From NCBI RefSeq assembly GCF_006402735.1, contig NZ_CP017174.1, positions 437,001 to 501,000 of the forward strand: a DNA stretch of 64,000 nt. Reading direction: 5' to 3'. This DNA comes from Myxococcus xanthus. GTDB lineage: Bacteria; Myxococcota; Myxococcia; Myxococcales; Myxococcaceae. Shown piece after piece: positions 4,013 through 36,902 of the stretch. A model generated the notes under the pieces. That model was not told the origin of the DNA, ran no database searches, and saw only the letters and a list, made by a program, of their open reading frames with translations. The translations under genes and the position numbers were made by a program. Position 1 is the first letter of the stretch, and every line of letters begins with the position of its first letter.

Positions 4013-4168
4013 CGAGGGGTGCGCCGCCCGGGTGACCTCGGCCAGGGGGAGGCGGCGCAGGCTCCGGGGCCTTCTTACCCCATCCGTGGTCCGGGCCGGT
4101 GACAGGCGTGGCGCCATGTCAGGTCCCGCGCTTCCAGCGCGTCATTTTTCACAGAAAGGAGCGGTGAC

Positions 4169-4315
4169 ATGCAGACGACGAACCTGACGAGCCCGATGAA
4201 TCCCGACACCTTGAACGACACTGTCATCGGCATCGGCGTGCTCGCGCCCGTCGCCCTGCTGCCCGCTCCCGTGCTGCCCGGTCTACCCATTGGCGGTAGA
4301 TGGCCCGGACTCTGA
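4169..4315 (+). CDS. 48-aa peptide, copy A of a duplicated cassette
   Basis: ATG at 4169 follows a strong Shine-Dalgarno (AAAGGAG, 4155-4161). Residues 1-22 contain the block NPDTLNDTVIGI, nearly identical to the peptide encoded at 9655. The remaining 26 residues differ fully and are hydrophobic and proline-rich (LAPVALLPAPVLPGLP), ending in RWPGL. A shared 60-nt terminator block follows about 25 nt after the stop and a tRNA-like gene 12 nt after that. A conserved N-terminus with a divergent tail is the layout of a leader/core precursor peptide, but a leader peptide controlling the downstream tRNA, or a passenger of a mobile cassette, are equally open. No maturation enzyme is adjacent. Too short for standard gene callers. 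Confidence 0.7.
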   Translation: MQTTNLTSPMNPDTLNDTVIGIGVLAPVALLPAPVLPGLPIGGRWPGL

Positions 4316-4339
4316 CGCCTTTCGCCCGTCCATCGACGT

Positions 4340-4399
4340 GGCATGGCAGGCCAGAGGCCGGGCTCCCCAAGGGAACCCGGCCTCTTTCTTTTCCGGGTC
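4340..4399 (+). terminator. Rho-independent terminator block, copy A
   Basis: A hairpin with a 10-bp outer stem (AGAGGCCGGG 4353-4362 with CCCGGCCTCT 4376-4385) is followed by TTCTTTT. The whole 60-nt block matches 9833-9892 at 59 of 60 positions; the one difference is in the loop. It ends the peptide-A transcript just before the tRNA-like gene. Confidence 0.85.
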
Positions 4400-4411
4400 G
4401 TCGCAGCACAT

Positions 4412-4483
4412 GCGGTCGTGGCCGAGTGGTCAGGCCCCTGGTCGCCATCCAGGTGAACACGGGTTCGAATCCCGTCGACCGCT
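4412..4483 (+). tRNA. tRNA-like gene, anticodon GCC (Gly?), atypical
   Basis: The sequence folds as a cloverleaf: acceptor GCGGTCG/CGACCGC (7 perfect pairs), D arm GCC/GGC, anticodon stem CCTGG/CCAGG with 7-nt loop TCGCCAT, short variable region TGAAC, and T arm ACGGG-TTCGAAT-CCCGT. The loop places anticodon GCC at 4444-4446, but position 33 is C instead of the near-universal U. CCA is not encoded. The D arm looks more like Ser/Tyr tRNAs than Gly tRNAs, so charging identity is uncertain. It sits 12 nt after the terminator of peptide A. Confidence 0.6.
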
Positions 4484-4520
4484 TTCCGGCAACCCACCCG
4501 GGTTGCCGTCATCGAATAAC

Positions 4521-4594
4521 GCCGCGGTAGCCCAACTGGTAGAGGCGCTGCACTCAGAATGCAGAGGGTGCGGGTTCGAATCCCGCCCGCGGCA
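4521..4594 (+). tRNA. tRNA with CAG anticodon, short variable loop (Leu-type halves)
   Basis: Acceptor GCCGCGG/CCGCGGC is perfect, the anticodon stem is CTGCA/TGCAG with loop CTCAGAA (anticodon CAG, U33 present), the T arm is GCGGG-TTCGAAT-CCCGC, and the discriminator is A at 4594. Acceptor, discriminator and anticodon suit tRNA-Leu, but the long class II variable arm of Leu tRNAs is missing (about 5 nt, AGGGT). Its 3' part from 4569 is repeated exactly at 8213-8240, and a tyrosine-integrase remnant ends 17 nt downstream, so this is the attachment-site tRNA of the island. The 3' half may have been supplied by the element. Confidence 0.7.
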
Positions 4595-4596
4595 AG
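4569..4596 (+). repeat. Left attachment-site repeat (attL), 28 bp
   Basis: This stretch covers the T arm, the 3' acceptor strand and two bases beyond the tRNA at 4521-4594. It is identical over 28 bp to 8213-8240; the bases just outside differ on both sides. Confidence 0.85.
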
Positions 4597-4610
4597 TTTT
4601 CCGAGTCTAG

Positions 4611-4959
4611 TTACGCAAGGTTGGCAACGGCCTCCGTCCGTGTTGCACCTGTGTCGCACGCGGGCGCAACAGGCAGGTCCAGGACGCTGACGGCGTTCCT
4701 CCGCGTGTCCGGGCTGAGATGGGCGTACCGCTCTCCGTCATATCGATGGTGGCGTGGCCCAGCAGCTCCTGAATGACCTTCACTTCAGCGGAACGCCCCG
4801 CATGGGGAGGTGGCTTCCGTAGGTGTGGCGCAGGTCGTGCCAGCCGATGATTCCCATCTCGCGAGCGATGCCCGCTCGTCGACGCGGCCTGTCCATCCTA
4901 TGGGCAGTCAGCGGCTTGCCGTCATCCAGGCAGAACACGTAGGGCCCGCGCAGGTTCCC
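4611..4959 (-). pseudogene. Tyrosine recombinase/integrase, C-terminal remnant
   Basis: Reading the minus strand gives a phage-type integrase C-terminus: LDDGKPLTAHRMDRPRRRAG, then GWHDLRHTYGSHL with the H-x-x-R catalytic box, then KVIQELLGHATIDMT, then ERYAHLSPDTRR with the nucleophilic tyrosine. These pieces lie in three frames. An apparent 5-nt duplication near 4779-4789 creates a stop after GVPLK, and a 2-nt insertion near 4733 breaks the frame before RYAHLS. The stop codon is at 4611-4613. The N-terminal half, including the first catalytic Arg, is missing and replaced by the IS3 fragment near 4960. The enzyme once recombined the element into the adjacent tRNA. Confidence 0.8.
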
Positions 4960-5080
4960 GCCTGGTTCGACGACTACAACCGATGCCACCCTCATCGCGG
5001 ATTGAAGATGATGTCACCCCGCGAATTCCGTATTGCTATTTCCCAAGCCTGAGCTGTCCGATTTGACGGGGGCAACTCCA
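4960..5080 (+). pseudogene. IS3-family transposase (OrfB) C-terminal scrap plus IS end
   Basis: The frame ending at 5052 encodes WFDDYNRCHPHRGLKMMSP followed by REFRIAISQA, the conserved end of the IS3-family DDE transposase (the YN..HPH.GL..SP signature). It is followed by TGTCCGATTTGACGGGGG (5055-5072), which resembles an IS3-family terminal inverted repeat. Only about 30 residues remain; the left part of the IS is gone. The scrap abuts the truncated integrase and probably marks the event that inactivated it. Confidence 0.75.
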
Positions 5081-5296
5081 CCGCGACTGCTACGCGCTAT
5101 CGCGCTCAACGCCGCCAAGCTACCTGTCTGCCCAGCATCCAGCCTGTCGACTCAGAAGCTACTGCGGTGGACAAAACGGCCTCGCTGGGCTAGTACGCCA
5201 GCCGCACCAGCTGCACTCAGTTCAGATTGCAGCCCTGCCCGGACGAGATGCGCCGTACCCGGTTACGTAAGACGACGCCCTGACCAGGGGTGCGTT

Positions 5297-5626
5297 ATGT
5301 CGTGGCTGCTTGTTCTCGTTGCTGGGTTGCTGGAGACGTGCTGGGCTGTGGGCCTCAAGTATACGCAGGGCTTCACCCGGCCTTGGCCCAGTCTCTTTGT
5401 TGCCGTCACGTTGATTAGCAGCCTGGCGCTGCTGTCCATCGCGATGCGCACGCTGCCGGCCGGGACTGCGTACGCGGTTTGGGTTGGAATTGGGGCCTTG
5501 GGCGCCGCGCTTGTTGGCATCGTGCTCTTCCGTGAGCCGGCCACACTGGGGCGCTTCTTCTTCCTTGGACTCATGGTCGTCTCTGTCGTCGGCCTGAAGT
5601 TCACCAGCGGCGGGGACGCGCACTAG
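5297..5626 (+). CDS. sugE: SMR-family exporter SugE/Gdx (guanidinium exporter type)
   Basis: 109 residues with four predicted helices, standard SMR length. The start MSWLLVLVAGLLETCWAVGL with the essential helix-1 glutamate (Glu13) and the following KYTQGF match the SugE/Gdx subgroup better than EmrE; GTAYAVWVGIGALGAA in helix 3 is the SMR signature. Gdx proteins export guanidinium in exchange for protons as antiparallel dimers in the inner membrane; some members instead confer tolerance to quaternary ammonium compounds. The ATG at 5297 gives the normal N-terminus. No guanidine riboswitch could be recognised in 5081-5296. It is cargo of the tRNA island, upstream of ndh with a 307-nt gap. Confidence 0.9.
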   Translation: MSWLLVLVAGLLETCWAVGLKYTQGFTRPWPSLFVAVTLISSLALLSIAMRTLPAGTAYAVWVGIGALGAALVGIVLFREPATLGRFFFLGLMVVSVVGLKFTSGGDAH

Positions 5627-5933
5627 GGGCTGTCTGTCCGAGCGCGCAGTGCGCTCGGGCAGCCGCGCCTCGGCCGTGGCTCGCCGAGCCAGGTCTTGGC
5701 CTTCCGCGAGAGTGCGCCCCCAAGAGGCTTCTCACGGGGCCTCTCAGACGAGCGGCAATCTTGGCTTCGTGCCCAGCGCGTGCGCGCCGGGCGGTCGCTG
5801 TACGAGCGCGCGCAGTACGTGTCGAGCCTTGGCGACGACGCGCACCGCGCCTATCGGCTGAGCCTCATCAACGCCATGGTGGTGCACCACGGTGACTCGG
5901 CCGTGTGCGCCGGCCAGGTGAAGGAGATGTCCC
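5627..5933. other. Gap between sugE and ndh, no firm gene
   Basis: A plus-strand frame from about 5696 encodes plausible protein text (SLGDDAHRAYRLSLINAMVV) but has no good start and runs on into ndh before a stop at 6112. It may be the C-terminal relic of a lost gene. I see nothing else here apart from the ndh ribosome-binding site at 5922-5927. Confidence 0.4.
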
Positions 5934-7364
5934 ATGGACCCCATCACGCCTCCGCTCGCCCCCGGCCAGAAGCACGTCGTCGTGCTGGGGGCGGGCTTCG
6001 CCGGACTCACGGCCGCCAAGGCGCTCGCGCGCCACTCGGCGCTGTACGTGACGGTCCTCGACCAACGCAACCACCACCTCTTCCAGCCGCTGCTCTACCA
6101 GGTGGCTACTAGCGGACTGAGCCCCGCGGACATCGCGGTGCCCATCCGCTCGCAGTTCGCACGCAAGCCCAACGTGTCGGTGCACTTGGGCCGCGTCACG
6201 TGGGTGAACCTCAAGGAACGCTGGGTGGGCGGCGAGGGCGACGTGCGGCTGCGCTACGACTACCTCGTCATCGCGTGCGGCGCGCAGCACAGCTACTTTG
6301 GCAAGTCGGAGTGGGAGGACTTCGCCCCGGGCCTCAAGACGCTGGAGCAGGCGACGGAGCTGCGCCGCCGCATCCTCAGCGCCTTCGAGCAGGCGGAGAA
6401 CGAGCGCGACGCCGAGCGCCAGCGCGCGCTCCTGAGCTTCGTCGTCGTGGGCGCAGGCCCCACGGGCGTGGAACTGGCGGGCGCCATCGCGGACATCAGC
6501 CGCACGGTGCTGGTGCGCGATTTCCGCCGCATCAAACCGTCCCGCGCGCGCGTCTTCCTCGTGGAGGCAGGCCCACGCATTCTGCCGTCCTTCAGCGAGA
6601 AGCTGAGTGTGCGTGCGCACCGCGACCTTGCGGCCCTGGGCGTGGAAGTGCGCACGGAGGCACGCGTGACGGCGGTGGACGCCGAGGGTGTGACGCTCGG
6701 CTCCGAGCGCCTGGCCTCGCGCACGGTGGTGTGGGCTGCAGGCGTGCAGGCCGAGTGCCTCACGCGCGGGCTCGGCGTGCCGCTGGACCGCGCGGGGCGC
6801 GTGCAGGTGGCGGCGGACCTCACGCTGCCCGGCCACCCGGAGGTCTTCGCCGCGGGTGACGTGGCCCACGTGAAACTGGACGGTAATCTCGTGCCCGGCG
6901 TCGCGCCTGCGGCCATGCAGATGGGCCGAGCCGTGGCGCGCAACGTCCTCGCGGACCTGCGCGGCCGCCCCCGCACGCCCTTCCGCTATAAGGACAAGGG
7001 CGCGATGGCCACCATCGGCAAGCACCGGGCCATCGCTGAGACGGGCCGCGCCAAGCTGACGGGCTTCGTCGCGTGGGTGGCGTGGCTCTTCATCCACGTC
7101 TGGTACCTGGTGGGCTTCAAGAACCGCTTCGGCGTGTTCGTCACGTGGGTGTGGAGTTACCTGTTCAGCACGCGCGGCGCGCGGCTCATCACGGAGAGCG
7201 AGTGGCGGCTGAGCCCGAAGGTCGCGTCTGAGCGCGCGCCGCACGCGGGCAAGGTGACGGCGGACGACCCCACGGCGCCCACCAGTGACGCGCGGCCGCC
7301 GGACGGGACGACGACGGCGACGCGCGGCACCGAGGGCAACCGCGCAGGGGCCTCATGGACCTGA
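5934..7364 (+). CDS. ndh: Type II NADH:quinone oxidoreductase
   Basis: The 476-residue flavoprotein has two Rossmann folds: the FAD-binding VVVLGAGFAGLTAAKAL near residues 15-31 and the NADH-binding VVVGAGPTGVELAGAIAD near 168-185. The second FAD contact FAAGDVAHV lies near residue 304. The hydrophobic C-terminal stretch around 382-410 (WLFIHVWYLVGFKNRFGVF) is the usual membrane anchor of NDH-2. It transfers electrons from NADH to quinone at the inner face of the membrane without pumping protons. AAGGAG at 5922 precedes the ATG at good spacing. A charged, likely disordered tail follows the anchor. Located inside the tRNA island, so probably accessory. Confidence 0.92.
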   Translation: MDPITPPLAPGQKHVVVLGAGFAGLTAAKALARHSALYVTVLDQRNHHLFQPLLYQVATSGLSPADIAVPIRSQFARKPNVSVHLGRVTWVNLKERWVGGEGDVRLRYDYLVIACGAQHSYFGKSEWEDFAPGLKTLEQATELRRRILSAFEQAENERDAERQRALLSFVVVGAGPTGVELAGAIADISRTVLVRDFRRIKPSRARVFLVEAGPRILPSFSEKLSVRAHRDLAALGVEVRTEARVTAVDAEGVTLGSERLASRTVVWAAGVQAECLTRGLGVPLDRAGRVQVAADLTLPGHPEVFAAGDVAHVKLDGNLVPGVAPAAMQMGRAVARNVLADLRGRPRTPFRYKDKGAMATIGKHRAIAETGRAKLTGFVAWVAWLFIHVWYLVGFKNRFGVFVTWVWSYLFSTRGARLITESEWRLSPKVASERAPHAGKVTADDPTAPTSDARPPDGTTTATRGTEGNRAGASWT

Positions 7365-8212
7365 GTGCACCCAAGCCCAGCGCTCACCCCGCCGGACTGC
7401 TGGCCATCGTTCTATTTTCGGAGAGGGAAGAGTCGCAGCCGCGCCTCCTCGGTTGCGTGTTCCGGGGCATGCCGAGCCCGGTCCGGGCCTCTCCCATTGG
7501 CCGGTTGACGGTGAATCTTCATTGCAGCCCCGCTCGCGTTGCGGAGCCGTTCCACATCGGCACGGTCCTCGAAAATGGCCAGCCAGTTCAGCACCTCGTT
7601 TGGTCGACAATCGCAGGGGAGCTGGGGCCAAGGCTGTTGAGCGGGAAGCGGCAGTAGAGGTCAGGCGTGAGCAACGCGGCCAAGAAAGCTTGGGGCTTGC
7701 CGATTCGGGCTCTCGCCGAGGAGTGCATGGACGAGGGGGCGTGTGGCGCGAGCGTTACCCAGTCGCGAATCTGCCGGTCAGGGTCGGGGCTCTCGGCTGC
7801 CAGGCCATGGATGCCCCCCCCTCCATGACGTAACCCGTCAGCCCCTTACCCGACTCCCTGAAGGGGGTTAGGTCCTGATGACGAGCTTCTGAGGACACTC
7901 CTCCCCGACGAAGAAGCGTGACCAATAGCCCGGCTTCGCAGGTTGGTGAGGCGGGCGCCGCATACCTGTCAGGCTCGCAAAGGCTACGGCCACACTCGAT
8001 GGCCCCAACTGTCGGTACAAGAGAGGTCGAGCCATCCGCAACTCGGCCCCTCTCTATCAGGCCCCTCCATGTTGCACGTGTGCCGCATGAACCTGCGGAG
8101 CGCTCCGGAACAGGGCGGGACGACAGGGAACGCGGCGGGATGGTGAATCCGAAGCACTCCGGGAGGTTGCAAGGTAGGGGCGCTATCCTGCTGGGGTTTC
8201 GCTCCACCCGGT
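7365..8212. other. Island right arm, no convincing gene
   Basis: About 850 bp in which no frame has both a ribosome-binding site and recognisable protein text. A minus-strand frame at 7412-7612 reads like part of a real protein (CDCRPNEVLNWLAIFEDRAD) but has no start and is probably a relic. The last 30 bases before the right repeat (GGGGTTTCGCTCCACCC) look like the variable arm of a class II tRNA, as expected if the element carried a longer copy of a Leu-type tRNA 3' half. Confidence 0.45.
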
Positions 8213-8240
8213 TGCGGGTTCGAATCCCGCCCGCGGCAAG
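8213..8240 (+). repeat. Right attachment-site repeat (attR), 28 bp
   Basis: An exact copy of 4569-4596, here without the 5' half of the tRNA seen at 4521. It marks the right end of the island. Confidence 0.85.
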
Positions 8241-8248
8241 GTTGTTTC

Positions 8249-8294
8249 CGGGACGTAGCTCAGCTTGGACAAGAGCGCGCGCTTGGGGTGCGCT
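8249..8294 (+). pseudogene. tRNA-Pro(TGG), 5' part only
   Basis: The sequence starts like a tRNA-Pro: acceptor 5' strand CGGGACG, then TA, D-arm stem GCTC/GAGC, and an anticodon stem with loop CTTGGGG giving anticodon TGG at 8284-8286. The variable region, T arm and 3' acceptor strand are absent; the sequence runs into the 3' end of the VOC gene at 8299. It cannot give a functional tRNA. Confidence 0.65.
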
Positions 8295-8298
8295 GTCA

Positions 8299-8688
8299 CT
8301 ACCCCTCCATCGGCGAGCAGAGCTCCACCAGGACGCCGTTGAGGTCTCTCACGTAGGCCACCGTCTGCCCCCAGGGCTTCTGCTTGGGAGGCTGCGTGGC
8401 CTCGGAGCCCGCCTCCACGGCGCGCGTGTATGCGGCGGCCACGTCGGTGGTGACGAGCGCCAGTTCGATGGCCGCCGCGTCCTCCTTCGGCCGCAGATGG
8501 CGCACGGTGAAGCCGTGCTCCTTCGCCGCGCCTTCCTCGACGAAGGCCAGGGCGGTGGTGCCTGTCTCCATCTCCGCGTAGCCACCGCTCTCGTGGATGA
8601 AGCGGCGCGCCAGTCCGAAGGCCTTCTCGTAGAACGCGATGGCGGCGCTCACGTCCGGTACGTAGAGGATGATGTAGCCGAGCTTCAT
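8299..8688 (-). CDS. VOC-family (glyoxalase/bleomycin-resistance fold) protein
   Basis: 129 residues with a single VOC module pair: MKLGYIILYVPDVSAAIAFYEKAF at the N-terminus and VAYVRDLNGVLVELCSP at the end, the usual paired betaalphabetabetabeta repeats with a C-terminal metal-ligand glutamate (VLVEL). Such proteins act as small metalloenzymes or binding proteins; the substrate cannot be told. The start at 8688 is chosen because upstream in-frame text is Arg/Cys-rich nonsense. It lies 88 nt downstream of an AraC-type regulator on the same strand, a common regulator-target arrangement. Its 3' end abuts the broken tRNA-Pro. Confidence 0.85.
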   Translation of the reverse strand: MKLGYIILYVPDVSAAIAFYEKAFGLARRFIHESGGYAEMETGTTALAFVEEGAAKEHGFTVRHLRPKEDAAAIELALVTTDVAAAYTRAVEAGSEATQPPKQKPWGQTVAYVRDLNGVLVELCSPMEG

Positions 8689-8776
8689 GGCGGACTCCTG
8701 TCGGTCAGTGGGACGTCTGTGTGAGTGCGTCGTCACACGGATGGCGCGGGCCTGTCTTGAAGGAATCGGACAGCGC

Positions 8777-9631
8777 TCAACCCACGAGTGCGGTGGGTGA
8801 CACGCCGGCCAGTTCCCGCACGTCTCGTGACAAATGCGCCTGGTCCGCGTAGCCGCATTCGAGCGCGACGTCACACAGGTCCGTGCCCTCGCGGGAGCGC
8901 AGCAGGGACACCGCCCGCTGGAAGCGCAGGACGCGCGCGAGCAGCTTCGGCGGTACGCCGGCTTCGTCCAGGATGTCCCGGTGCAGGGTGCGCTCACTCA
9001 CGCCCAGCGCGCGAGCGAGCGCGGCCATGCGCACCTGCCCCGACGAGGCTTGAATGTGTCCCAGGGCCTGGACGGCACGCGGCTTCGCGATGCTCCGGAA
9101 CGAAGCCCAGCGTCGGGCGATGGTCTGCTGGAGCAGGGCCATGGCCTGGGCGGGCGAGGCACAGTCTTCCATCCGCCGCTGAAGCTGCGTGAGGGCGGGC
9201 GAGCAGTCCTGGGCGGAGACGTTGAGTCCGCAGAGTTCACGCGGACTGACACCCAGCAGGGCCTGCGCCCAGCCAGGACGGAGCCTGACGCCCAGGCTCA
9301 CCCCGCCGGGCTCGAGGTCGACGAGGACGAAGCGCTTCATGGGGCCGACGACGGCCAGCCGGGGTGCGGCCAGCCACACCGGGCCTGGGGCGTGTTGGAA
9401 GCCGAAGATGAGGTCGGTGCAGCCATCCGGAAGCACCCGGTGCTGCCGGGGGAGGGGGACGCCGTGTTGCTTTCGGGGCACCCAGAACTGCCAGAACGCG
9501 TCCACCGCATCCGCCATCTCGATAGGCGGTGCCCACTGGGTGTAGCCCTGCTGCTGTGCGTCCTCCGCCATCGCGTCCCTGTCTTCAGCCCGTGCACAGC
9601 CCGTCAGGCTCTGTGCGGCCATTGCGTCCAT
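8777..9631 (-). CDS. AraC-family transcriptional regulator
   Basis: About 284 residues (264 if the internal Met at 9571 is used). The N-terminal half contains HRVLPDGCTDLIFGF and RPGWAQALLGVSPREL, typical of the DUF6597 sensor domain that precedes many AraC DNA-binding domains. The last 100 residues carry the two HTH motifs (MAALARALGVSERTLHRDI and ICDVA-like ALECGYADQAHLSRDVREL). The ligand is unknown. It probably controls itself and the VOC gene downstream. It is divergent from the small peptide gene at 9655, only 23 nt away, so their control regions overlap. Confidence 0.88.
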   Translation of the reverse strand: MDAMAAQSLTGCARAEDRDAMAEDAQQQGYTQWAPPIEMADAVDAFWQFWVPRKQHGVPLPRQHRVLPDGCTDLIFGFQHAPGPVWLAAPRLAVVGPMKRFVLVDLEPGGVSLGVRLRPGWAQALLGVSPRELCGLNVSAQDCSPALTQLQRRMEDCASPAQAMALLQQTIARRWASFRSIAKPRAVQALGHIQASSGQVRMAALARALGVSERTLHRDILDEAGVPPKLLARVLRFQRAVSLLRSREGTDLCDVALECGYADQAHLSRDVRELAGVSPTALVG

Positions 9632-9654
9632 TTCCCATGAAAGGAGCGGTGGCC

Positions 9655-9807
9655 ATGAAGACGGCGAACCTGTCGAGCCCGATGAATCCCGACACCCTGA
9701 ACGATACTGTCATCGGCATCGATGCGCTCGCGTTCGCTGGCCAGGCCACCGCTCTTGATTCCGAGCGGGGAGAGACCTCCCGTCGAGATCGCCCGCCTGG
9801 ATTCTGA
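9655..9807 (+). CDS. 50-aa peptide, copy B of a duplicated cassette
   Basis: ATG at 9655 follows GAAAGGAG (9639-9646). Residues 1-22 match peptide A except Q2K, T4A and T7S, including NPDTLNDTVIGI. The remaining 28 residues are unrelated to A (polar and charged, with DSERGETSRRDRP) but also end in P-G-aromatic (RPPGF). The 5' leader (GCGTC...ATTT...GAAAGGAGCGGTG) and the downstream terminator are conserved too, whereas the middle is not. Same hypotheses as for copy A. No enzyme gene for peptide maturation lies next to it. Confidence 0.7.
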   Translation: MKTANLSSPMNPDTLNDTVIGIDALAFAGQATALDSERGETSRRDRPPGF

Positions 9808-9832
9808 CCCACCGTGCCCCGTCGAAGGACAG

Positions 9833-9892
9833 GGCATGGCAGGCCAGAGGCCGGGCTCCCCGAGGGAACCCGGCCTCTTTCTTTTCCGGGTC
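9833..9892 (+). terminator. Rho-independent terminator block, copy B
   Basis: Same 60-nt block as 4340-4399 with one base change; the hairpin spans 9846-9878, followed by TTCTTTT. It lies between peptide B and the tRNA-like gene at 9902. Confidence 0.85.
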
Positions 9893-9901
9893 AACCCCAC
9901 T

Positions 9902-9973
9902 GCTCCGGGATGCGATTGGAATCGCAGCACGGCCGTCTACCGTGTGAACAGGGTTCGATTCCCTGTCGGAGCG
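9902..9973 (+). tRNA. tRNA-like gene, anticodon GTC (Asp?), atypical
   Basis: Cloverleaf: acceptor GCTCCGG/TCGGAGC (six Watson-Crick pairs and one G-U), D arm TGCG/CGCA with loop ATTGGAAT, anticodon stem CACGG/CCGTG with loop CCGTCTA, variable TGAA, T arm CAGGG-TTCGATT-CCCTG. The anticodon would be GTC (9935-9937). Position 33 is C, position 37 is T, and U8 is replaced by G, all against the tRNA consensus, and CCA is not encoded. It could be a decaying tRNA or a tRNA mimic. It starts 9 nt after the peptide-B terminator, the same layout as at 4412. Confidence 0.5.
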
Positions 9974-9994
9974 CTCATCCCCGAGGAGACGCCC

Positions 9995-10057
9995 ATGAAT
10001 CCCCTCTCCACTGATTCCGAGCCGGAAGACCTGTTCGACGGCATCGCTTCCTTCTGA
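9995..10057 (+). CDS. 20-aa acidic micropeptide ORF
   Basis: ATG at 9995 is preceded by GAGGAG (9983-9988) at optimal spacing and the ORF ends in TGA at 10055-10057. The product is MNPLSTDSEPEDLFDGIASF. A 7-bp GC hairpin follows 5 nt after the stop. The very good ribosome-binding site and the terminator-like hairpin argue for a translated micropeptide or leader peptide between the tRNA-like gene and tRNA-Arg. No relatives can be named. Confidence 0.45.
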   Translation: MNPLSTDSEPEDLFDGIASF

Positions 10058-10061
10058 CACC

Positions 10062-10081
10062 GCGCCCCGTGGCTGGGGCGC
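10062..10081 (+). terminator. GC hairpin after the 20-aa ORF
   Basis: GCGCCCC (10062-10068) pairs perfectly with GGGGCGC (10075-10081) around a 6-nt loop. No U-tract follows, so it is a weak terminator or an RNA-processing signal ahead of tRNA-Arg. Confidence 0.5.
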
Positions 10082-10099
10082 TCTCGCAGTCGCAGTTCC

Positions 10100-10172
10100 G
10101 GTCTTGTAGCTCAGAGGATAGAGCACTCGGTTGCGGACCGAGAGGCCGCAGGTTCGACTCCTGCCAGGACCA
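10100..10172 (+). tRNA. tRNA-Arg (anticodon GCG)
   Basis: A regular 73-nt cloverleaf: acceptor GGTCTTG/CAGGACC, U8, D arm GCTC/GAGC, anticodon stem CTCGG/CCGAG with loop TTGCGGA (anticodon GCG at 10133-10135, U33 present), and T arm GCAGG-TTCGACT-CCTGC, discriminator A. CCA is not encoded. Most bacteria read CGN with an inosine-modified ACG tRNA, so a GCG tRNA-Arg is uncommon. Confidence 0.85.
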
Positions 10173-10263: not shown

Positions 10264-11226
10264 GTGAGCCCGGTCACCCTGCAAATCAACCTCGCGCCCA
10301 CGGACCATCCGCACGCGCGCCTCATCCTTCCGCATCAGCTTCGCCAACTCGGGCCCTCCGTGCAGGAGGTGCTGCTCGTGCTGGACCTGCACCGCAGCCA
10401 GGGCAGCCGCTTCGCGGGTGCGTGGCTGGAGCGAAAGCCGAAGATGGACGCGCTGCTGTCGGAGCTGTCCTCGGCGGACTCGCGCATCCGGGTGGCGGAG
10501 GTGGACTACTCCCCCGCCGTCACGAAGGCGCTCTCCGAGCAGTTCTTCGGAGGCTCCCGGCTGCCCATGAAGGACTCGCGCGGCGGGCCCTTCCATTCCT
10601 ACTTCTTCGGGCTCGCGGCGGCGAAGCACCCGCACGTGATGCACCTGGACGCGGACATGCTCGTCGGTGGAGCGTCACGCACCTGGATGGCGGAGGCGGC
10701 CGCGCAGCTCGCGTCTCGCGAGGAGTTGGTGAGCTGCAGTCCTTTGTCGGGCCCGCCGCGCGCGGACGGGACGATTGCGGGAGACGGTCGCTGGTACGAG
10801 CCCGATGCACAGGGCTCCCACGCGTTCCGTTTCCGGCGCTTCAGCAGCCGCGCCTTCTTCGTGGACCGCGACGCCATGGTGCGCCGGGTGGGGCCGCTGC
10901 AGGCGAAGCTGGCGCCGCCCATTCACGTGCTGCGTGCCTTGCGCGCGGGCAATCCGCCGTACCGCGAGCCGGAGAACCTGGTCACCCGGAGGCTCAAGCG
11001 TCGCGGCTTGTGGCGGCTGGACTTCCTGGGCGCCGCGCCGGGCCTGTGGACGTTGCATCCCCAGTACCGTTCGCCCACGTTCTACGAGCGGCTGCCGGAG
11101 CTGATTACGCGCGTGGAGTCCGGGGACATGCCTGACGCCCAGCGCGGCCAGGAGAACGTGCAGGACTGCCTGGTGGACTGGTCCGACGTGAGGGCCGCGC
11201 GGCGGAAGTGGTGGCGACGCGGGTAG
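10264..11226 (+). CDS. Glycosyltransferase-like protein with DxD motif
   Basis: 320 residues starting at GTG 10264. No signal peptide. The centre has HVMHLDADMLVGG (Asp129-Ala-Asp131), the metal/nucleotide-sugar-binding DxD of GT-A glycosyltransferases, preceded by a strand-rich Rossmann-like half (VQEVLLVLDLHRSQGSRFAG). The C-terminal third is Arg/Trp-rich. Likely transfers a sugar in cell-surface polysaccharide or lipid synthesis, but no donor or acceptor can be inferred and there are no polysaccharide genes beside it. It stands alone between tRNA-Arg and the convergent rraA. Confidence 0.65.
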   Translation: MSPVTLQINLAPTDHPHARLILPHQLRQLGPSVQEVLLVLDLHRSQGSRFAGAWLERKPKMDALLSELSSADSRIRVAEVDYSPAVTKALSEQFFGGSRLPMKDSRGGPFHSYFFGLAAAKHPHVMHLDADMLVGGASRTWMAEAAAQLASREELVSCSPLSGPPRADGTIAGDGRWYEPDAQGSHAFRFRRFSSRAFFVDRDAMVRRVGPLQAKLAPPIHVLRALRAGNPPYREPENLVTRRLKRRGLWRLDFLGAAPGLWTLHPQYRSPTFYERLPELITRVESGDMPDAQRGQENVQDCLVDWSDVRAARRKWWRRG

Positions 11227-36833: not shown

Positions 36834-36902
36834 CTGTCAGGGCGGGGCCCCTGAGGCGTAGGTCGGCGGCGTAGAATCCACGCCACGCTGAGGGGGCTGC
36901 CG

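Follow-up and report, generated by a model that had tools for sequence, protein, structure and literature searches.

Candidate ribosome-controlled attenuators in front of accessory tRNA arrays in Myxococcus xanthus

In this study, a 64,000-nucleotide (nt) window of the Myxococcus xanthus genome (positions 437001–501000 of C1, the complete 9.32-Mb chromosome) was analyzed. It contains two short open reading frames (ORFs), each followed by a strong terminator, that stand in front of tRNA genes. Positions without a prefix are those of the window. An earlier description made without database searches (the sequence-only reading) had proposed a duplicated cassette of leader, peptide gene, terminator block and 72-nt tRNA-like gene. 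The cassette proved to be real: both ORFs (48 and 50 amino acids), the leader GAAAGGAGCGGTG at both loci, the terminator blocks and the downstream tRNAs, which lack an encoded CCA, were confirmed. By direct reading the terminator blocks differ in one base (CAAG/CGAG). The length of 72 nt was right for the tRNA-Gly of unit 1, but the tRNA-Asp of unit 2 has 73 nt according to ARAGORN. A tRNA-Leu, a tRNA-Arg and a third short ORF (Table 1), as well as two more units elsewhere in the genome, had been overlooked. Three explanations had been offered: a modified-peptide precursor, a leader peptide or attenuator controlling the tRNA, and a small mobile cassette. The second was strongly supported by codon matching, antiterminator folding, covariation and a shared promoter-like motif. 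Each unit is probably a ribosome-controlled transcription attenuator before an accessory tRNA array, and the peptide is best read as a test strip for the ribosome rather than as a product.

The architecture of a unit is, in order, ribosome site, ORF, stop codon, strong terminator and tRNA array. The M. xanthus genome holds four units. Both units outside the window are minus-strand units, one near C1:1762.5 kb with the array Tyr, Ile, Met, Gln, Ala, Leu, the other near C1:1767.8 kb with Pro, Lys, Asn; their ORFs are different, but the ribosome site and terminator are of the same kind. The first window peptide had matches at E<1e-5 in 24 of 25 genus genomes and nothing below E=0.35 in the 16 order-level genomes searched alongside, and the matches are therefore more than chance. 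Further copies, which the sequence-only reading had proposed to look for, were thus found: tRNAs follow the ORF in 24 of the 25 genus loci examined, and the exception (L032) is a chance match. In the family search (E≤0.003), 26/27 genus genomes, 6/6 genomes of genus g17 and 2/4 of g21 had a match; the other 59 genomes had none below 0.09. A second peptide type, class A, was matched at E<1e-12 in 19/27 genus genomes, with several copies in some of them.

A total of 75 units from 29 genomes were compared (38 of class 1, 24 of class A, 12 of class E and 1 of class B). Units were selected by a regular-expression terminator, an ORF of 20–120 codons with Shine-Dalgarno site and ATG start, and a chain of tRNAs beginning no more than 260 nt away, and duplicates were removed. 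That all 75 have a ribosome site and short ORF ahead of an intrinsic terminator is thus true by selection. Among the units that the filter drops is one of class A in G017, and the loci of the weak peptide matches in G074 and G075 gave no unit. The wide loci used cover part of the family, the window-type wide loci of G001, G018 and G023 being left out. Across the units, the ORF has 40–56 codons, the stop codon is TGA in 75/75, the gap to the terminator is 35–42 nt except for values of 21 and 46, and the arrays have up to 18 tRNAs. The array starts at most 60 nt from the terminator match in 69/75 units; it would therefore have to be transcribed through the terminator, unless a hidden promoter lies there.

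Codon matching between leader ORFs and their arrays

The fit between each ORF and its own array was investigated by a swap test. For every pair of different-class units in one genome, the ORF codons readable by each array were counted. The own array fitted better in 58/58 within-genome swaps (1–A 28, A–E 14, 1–E 13, 1–B 2 and A–B 1). Residue composition was consistent with this result. In class 1, a residue was commoner in the variable part of the peptide when its tRNA was present in the array for Ala (p=3e-6), Pro (3e-5), Leu (6e-5), Arg (3e-4), Gly (7e-4), Glu (4e-3) and Asp (6e-3), with no enrichment for Val; in class A the same test gave 1e-4 for Ile and His and weak signals for Arg and Pro, all p values being uncorrected for descent. 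Comparison of nearest-neighbour pairs, which are partly dependent on one another, gave 69 pairs for and 5 against in class 1 and 56 for and 29 against in class A, with 62 ties overall.

Single units illustrate the match, which can be verified by eye across dozens of genomes. Unit 2 of the window has an Asp-Arg array and the peptide tail DSERGETSRRDRPPGF. In class A, Leu is carried by 13/24 arrays, always with the anticodon gag or caa, and 82/89 Leu codons of the class A ORFs are CTC, CTT or TTG, fitting these anticodons. Codon matching is well supported computationally, with exceptions given below.

Predicted alternative pairing of the leader RNA

The 3' end of the ORF, stop codon included (CCC GGA CTC TGA and variants), is complementary to the 5' arm of the terminator (CAGAGGCCGGG and variants). 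In folds of the RNA up to this arm, the ORF end and the arm formed a helix that closes off an inner hairpin, near-uniformly across units. With 36 nt of ORF included, at least five expected pairs between ORF end and arm were obtained in 37/38 class 1, 21/24 class A, 12/12 class E and 1/1 class B units. Agreement dropped as more of the ORF was included: the counts in the same order were 35/38, 23/24, 12/12 and 0/1 with 60 nt, and 29/38, 20/24, 12/12 and 0/1 with 90 nt. Mean pairs were 9.8, 10.1 and 9.7 for classes 1, E and A, versus 3.4, 4.6 and 2.8 in dinucleotide shuffles and 4.7, 5.2 and 4.0 in codon shuffles.

Covariation of the antiterminator plus inner hairpin was investigated in 50 class 1 and E units. 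Standard pairs filled 87.4% of cells, versus at most 46.8% when the strands were slid against each other. The score was reached by 0/500 shuffles, a count that is not a probability because the sequences are related. One arm position covaries both with the ORF end (UA 31 and CG 13 of 50) and with the 3' arm of the terminator (AU 36, GC 12). This is therefore a three-way covariation, as an attenuator requires. Pairs at the antiterminator tip were undercounted, since the alignment shifts shorter terminator arms by one base.

The effect of ribosome position was modeled in seven units from two genomes. Pairing was kept in 7/7 when the freed RNA began 15 or 30 nt upstream of the last stop-codon base and in 6/7 (not class B) when it began 45 or 60 nt upstream; it was lost when the stop was covered. 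The antiterminator also formed in folding without a ribosome, and the array would therefore be off only while translation succeeds.

The results suggested the following switch. RNA polymerase, probably with an extracytoplasmic function (ECF) sigma factor, would start near GTCAGG-N-CGT[CA]. A ribosome would load at GAAAGGAG and translate the ORF, in the middle of which the residues and codons of the array tRNAs are overrepresented. If these codons are decoded, the ribosome at the stop would cover the last codons, the terminator would form, and the tRNAs would not be made. If decoding fails or no ribosome is present, the last codons and stop may instead pair with the 5' arm around the inner hairpin; the terminator would then be blocked and the array transcribed.

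Leader-peptide attenuation is textbook knowledge for amino-acid operons. The trp, his, leu and ilv attenuators likewise have an ORF with control codons, an intrinsic terminator before the regulated genes, a mutually exclusive antiterminator and a switch set by ribosome position. Three features differ here. What is regulated is not a set of biosynthesis enzymes but tRNAs that serve the control codons, up to 18 per array; the antiterminator strand is the ORF end including the stop codon; and a 1:2 protector helix, generally present in trp-type attenuators, is not predicted. Without this helix, absence of translation should therefore also give read-through. The tRNAs under control are the very ones that decode the control codons, and the same code therefore serves sensing and remedy. 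The type of mechanism is known; tRNAs as regulated genes and the self-matching code are new. In the literature covered (open-licence PMC papers, with subscription papers mostly outside it), neither a precedent for attenuated tRNA arrays nor a description of these Myxococcus arrays was found.

The constant P-P-G-x-stop end of the peptide is an RNA constraint, imposed by antiterminator pairing with the terminator arm. This bears on the idea that the ORF encodes a modified or secreted peptide precursor with an exchanged core and that tRNA adjacency is incidental; the sequence-only reading had leaned towards a precursor-like peptide with constant ends and a swapped core. The conserved N-terminus would suit a precursor, as would class A, which is conserved along the whole peptide (65–98% identity in most full-length matches). 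The leader peptides had no Pfam match, and NCBIfam gave one meaningless kinase match (E 0.28) in one of three peptides; the protein at 10264–11223, the only protein gene near the window units that was scanned, belonged to no family. Moreover, the core tracks the array, and the constant end and the terminator are complementary and covary. The precursor idea is not supported, because codons and RNA pairing explain both the variable core and the constant C-terminus, and it is highly improbable. A small ORF whose ends are conserved around a variable core may thus be an RNA switch instead of a peptide precursor.

Several results weigh against the attenuator reading. The units share descent, and the counts are not independent trials. 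In the codon comparison, the A–B swap difference was merely 0.01, and most class A residues showed no residue-tRNA trend. Class A arrays carry Ala(tgc) and Gly(ccc), yet the ORFs use GCC 66 times versus GCA once and GGC 49 times versus GGG twice. In folding, the single class B unit failed the antiterminator test with 60 nt of ORF, and individual units beat all 20 dinucleotide shuffles in 17/38 class 1, 1/12 class E, 9/24 class A and 0/1 class B cases. Double-change pairs were not raised (6, versus 4.9 in shuffles and up to 7 in slid versions). By raw duplex energy the ORF end was not the best partner of the arm, its median rank being 6 of about 52 windows in class 1, 10.5 of about 55 in class E and 14 in class B. 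ORF ends swapped among arms were equally good in 1/2000 cases over all classes, 93/2000 within class 1 and 1763/2000 within class A; the within-class swaps are marginal for class 1 and uninformative for class A. The protector helix had 0.6–1.8 expected pairs between the middle and segment 2, versus 9.0–10.6 between segments 2 and 3 (class means). A stricter form of the promoter-like motif gave 36 matches in the M. xanthus genome versus 30 in a backward control, and the whole-genome scan was dropped as a regulon finder because it was too unspecific. Finally, the attenuator reading does not account for the conserved N-terminus of the leader. Its conservation is partly at the nucleotide level, with AGC CCG ATG in 37/37 class 1 rows of a codon table anchored on the residues SPMN, one row (G024) being skipped. 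In most units, though not in that of class B once 60 nt of ORF are included, folding predicts a mutually exclusive antiterminator, and attenuation as modeled is well supported computationally, with the exceptions listed.

Promoter motif, array tRNAs and possible role

The motif NGTCAGG-N14..17-CGT[AC] was found at most 95 nt upstream of the ORF start in 73/75 units. By our own arithmetic, the chance of a match in a given 300-nt stretch of one strand is about 0.4%. In the window there were 3 matches versus 1.85 expected by chance, so the motif carries weight only by its conservation. The third window match (36836–36860) has no tRNA behind it. The same motif lies upstream of an ECF sigma gene in 6/8 loci, including two genera in which the sigma is only 61–63% identical. 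The sigma gene was present in 82/92 family genomes. We infer that this sigma reads these promoters, which presumably resemble those of the ECF41 type.

Divergently oriented to the sigma gene of M. xanthus, and downstream of the motif, lie a Y RNA-like element, a metallophosphatase, a YrlA match, a vWA protein, a 329-aa protein and a JAB protein. The metallophosphatase matched parts of ApaH, PrpE and Pnkp in NCBIfam, each below cut-off; the 329-aa protein has no family, and the JAB match was below cut-off. Three Y RNA-like elements, permuted tRNA mimics, have their 3' ends at L196:5217, 6097 and 13916 (minus strand) within 9 kb, two of them with the GTCAGG-CGTC motif. Their putative Y RNA identity is based on a single sub-cut-off Rfam match and on structure: one of the three elements, which together span C1:1.779–1.788 Mb, matched YrlA (RF02553) with 46.8 bits (cut-off 69, E 1.3e-7), and an end stem and closed tRNA-like acceptor were judged by eye. 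The element at 1.788 Mb (L196:13916), 8 kb from the others, has the motif and is covered in 20/27 genus genomes; only its flanks match in G001, G006, G018 and G023, which thus have an empty site. The motif also lies upstream of Y RNA-like elements in several loci. The shared motif suggests an RNA-stress regulon of tRNA units, sigma and Y RNA-like elements. The sigma is retained in genera in which no leader peptide was matched, and the regulon therefore probably predates the tRNA units.

Two regions, L196:1889–5057 and L005:13221–14183 (the unit B region, both minus strand), hold genes for vWA, 329-aa, JAB-like and ThiF/E1 proteins and a small protein without assignment. Together they may form a ubiquitin-like set with a link to Y RNA. 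The 588-aa vWA protein beside the Y RNA-like elements was considered as Ro60, but this identity was not supported: no Ro60 was among the solved-structure matches, and TROVE (PF05731) was over cut-off in 0/13 genomes searched. A known anti-phage system was rejected, with generic matches only (ThiF/E1, HNH and a weak helix-turn-helix match of the sigma).

The array tRNAs are divergent. In the stretches of the M. xanthus genome that were taken, ARAGORN found 49 main tRNA genes and 14 of array type, a Ser gene included. A main tRNA of the same anticodon was found for 11/14 array tRNAs, with an identity of 57–74%. The array tRNA-Leu copies have 74 nt and lack the long arm, and Gly, Asp and Leu(gag) have C33. 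An HNH endonuclease gene (L005:5985–6524, minus strand) lies directly 3' of the last tRNA-Leu of unit A. In M. eversor (G012), 18 tRNAs stand behind the class A unit, with two Ser tRNAs about 770 nt further on; the arrays of the other two units are Gly, Ala, Leu, Pro, Pro, Asp, Ala and Glu, Glu, Arg, Val. By anticodon, these arrays and the two Ser genes, the co-transcription of which is only assumed, cover all 20 amino acids.

These altered features could mean that the array tRNAs are decoys or relics with a minor part in translation, the leader merely limiting their synthesis. The missing long arm of Leu, the C33 bases, an Asp gene below the Rfam cut-off and the loss of members from the M. 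xanthus arrays, as judged against relatives, point in this direction. Against it, many array tRNAs score like ordinary ones (73.8 bits for the M. xanthus Lys copy), the M. eversor set spans 20 amino acids, and the codon match is most sensible if the tRNAs decode. Such a minor role is unlikely.

In the attenuator reading, the array would provide a second, divergent set of tRNAs. Its most likely use would be to stand in for tRNAs that have been damaged or run low, for example through tRNA-cutting toxins, with the Y RNA-like elements acting beside it under the same motif. Replacement is our working hypothesis for the role. The same attenuator could also respond to ordinary amino-acid starvation, uncharged extra tRNAs then amplifying the stringent response or starvation development. 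The switch as read would sense any decoding failure, and the stringent response is classically triggered by uncharged tRNA. However, the leaders probe many amino acids simultaneously, and the arrays share their motif with Y RNA-like elements and a phosphatase, which suggests RNA stress. A starvation trigger is somewhat unlikely. A wider proposal is possible, though we would stop short of calling it probable: an emergency tRNA set for all 20 amino acids, locked twice, by an ECF sigma and by one attenuator per array whose leader checks that the codons of that array are still decoded, as a self-sensing replacement against tRNA-cutting toxins, with array tRNAs altered to escape nucleases and with the RNA-stress sigma also running the tRNA-mimicking Y RNAs. 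The attenuator reading gives a testable answer to why some bacterial chromosomes retain large arrays of odd tRNAs. The units could also provide a readout of which tRNAs fail under stress, such as that by tRNA-cutting toxins in a predatory bacterium.

The Salmonella RNA repair operon is the nearest precedent for this setting. This operon, rsr-yrlBA-rtcBA with RtcR, includes Y RNAs with a tRNA-like domain and is induced by damaged tRNAs or tRNA halves (PMC7790460). The tRNA-like domain and the damage-linked setting would be common to both systems. In Myxococcus, by contrast, regulation would fall to an ECF sigma and its zinc-finger anti-sigma, no match to TROVE (Ro60) exceeded the cut-off in the 13 genomes searched, and extra tRNA genes share the motif. 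Dense clusters of extra, divergent tRNAs are also known in phages and mycobacteria: phage tRNAs are reported to evade tRNA-targeting defences (PMC10264068), and large mycobacterial tRNA clusters are accompanied by HNH genes (PMC9569102). The arrays studied here resemble these in a possible use against tRNA cleavage and in an HNH gene nearby. They differ in being chromosomal and genus-wide, and each stands behind a leader ORF and terminator.

Window features and a putative integrated element

The features of both window units are listed in Table 1. The tRNA-Asp is more degenerate than the tRNA-Gly and is not among the three Rfam tRNA matches of the window at gathering score. The ORF between the two tRNAs of unit 2 is possibly a class E leader remnant, because its ending DGIASF is common to class E.

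Table 1. Coordinates of the two units in the window.
Feature	Position	Strand	Detail	Basis
Unit 1 promoter-like motif	4118..4143	+	GTCAGG-N16-CGTC	motif scan
Unit 1 ribosome binding site	4154..4161	+	GAAAGGAG	
Unit 1 leader peptide ORF	4169..4315	+	48 aa	ORF call, peptide search
Unit 1 antiterminator strand (predicted)	4301..4315	+	last codons and stop, complementary to terminator 5' arm	
Unit 1 gap between stop and terminator	4316..4352	+	with inner hairpin	
Unit 1 intrinsic terminator	4353..4392	+	with T-rich tail	
Unit 1 array tRNA-Gly(gcc)	4412..4483	+	72 nt	ARAGORN; Rfam tRNA cut-off passed
Unit 1 array tRNA-Leu(cag)	4521..4594	+	74 nt, without long variable arm	ARAGORN
Unit 2 promoter-like motif	9603..9628	+	GTCAGG-N16-CGTC	
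Unit 2 ribosome binding site	9639..9646	+	GAAAGGAG	
Unit 2 leader peptide ORF	9655..9807	+	50 aa	
Unit 2 antiterminator strand (predicted)	9793..9807	+		
Unit 2 intrinsic terminator	9846..9885	+	with T-rich tail	
Unit 2 array tRNA-Asp(gtc)	9902..9974	+	73 nt, degenerate, C33	ARAGORN
Short ORF	9995..10057	+	MNPLSTDSEPEDLFDGIASF, possible class E leader remnant	
Unit 2 array tRNA-Arg(gcg)	10100..10172	+		ARAGORN

The two window units are separated by a putative integrated element. A 28-bp direct repeat of the tRNA-Leu 3' end occurs at 4569–4596 and 8213–8240, and a Pro-tRNA-like 5' part follows the second copy. A frameshifted remnant at 4600–5000 (minus strand) is integrase-like, of what we take to be the tyrosine type from its motifs. 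The element was probably integrated at the tRNA-Leu and split an ancestral array.

This element bears on the idea that the units themselves came from phages and moved from one tRNA locus to another as mobile tRNA cassettes. The integrase-like remnant and repeat beside unit 1, the several class A copies in some genomes, the phage-like array layout and the matches of array DNA to tRNA genes in 813 phage records agree with it. However, the units recur in 26/27 genus genomes, and the element interrupts the array and does not carry it. Phage matches covered at most 14% of the query among the matches listed, and 0/813 records covered 80%. Low coverage of this kind is the expectation for tRNAs in general. 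A phage origin was rejected, as the 813 records match through single tRNAs. Spread as mobile cassettes is very unlikely. The sequence-only idea of a mobile element that targets tRNA genes is thus not supported for the units, which occur in most genus genomes, but an integrated element seemingly broke the array here with the tRNA-Leu as its site.

Known regulatory RNAs were searched for in the window at gathering score. No known riboswitch was found ahead of the tRNAs, and the covariance model of the T-box aptamer had no match. The sole riboswitch match was a Guanidine-III riboswitch at 5224–5281 (47.1 bits), inside the putative integrated element. It lies upstream of an ORF at 5297, which presumably encodes a protein resembling a small multidrug-resistance transporter.

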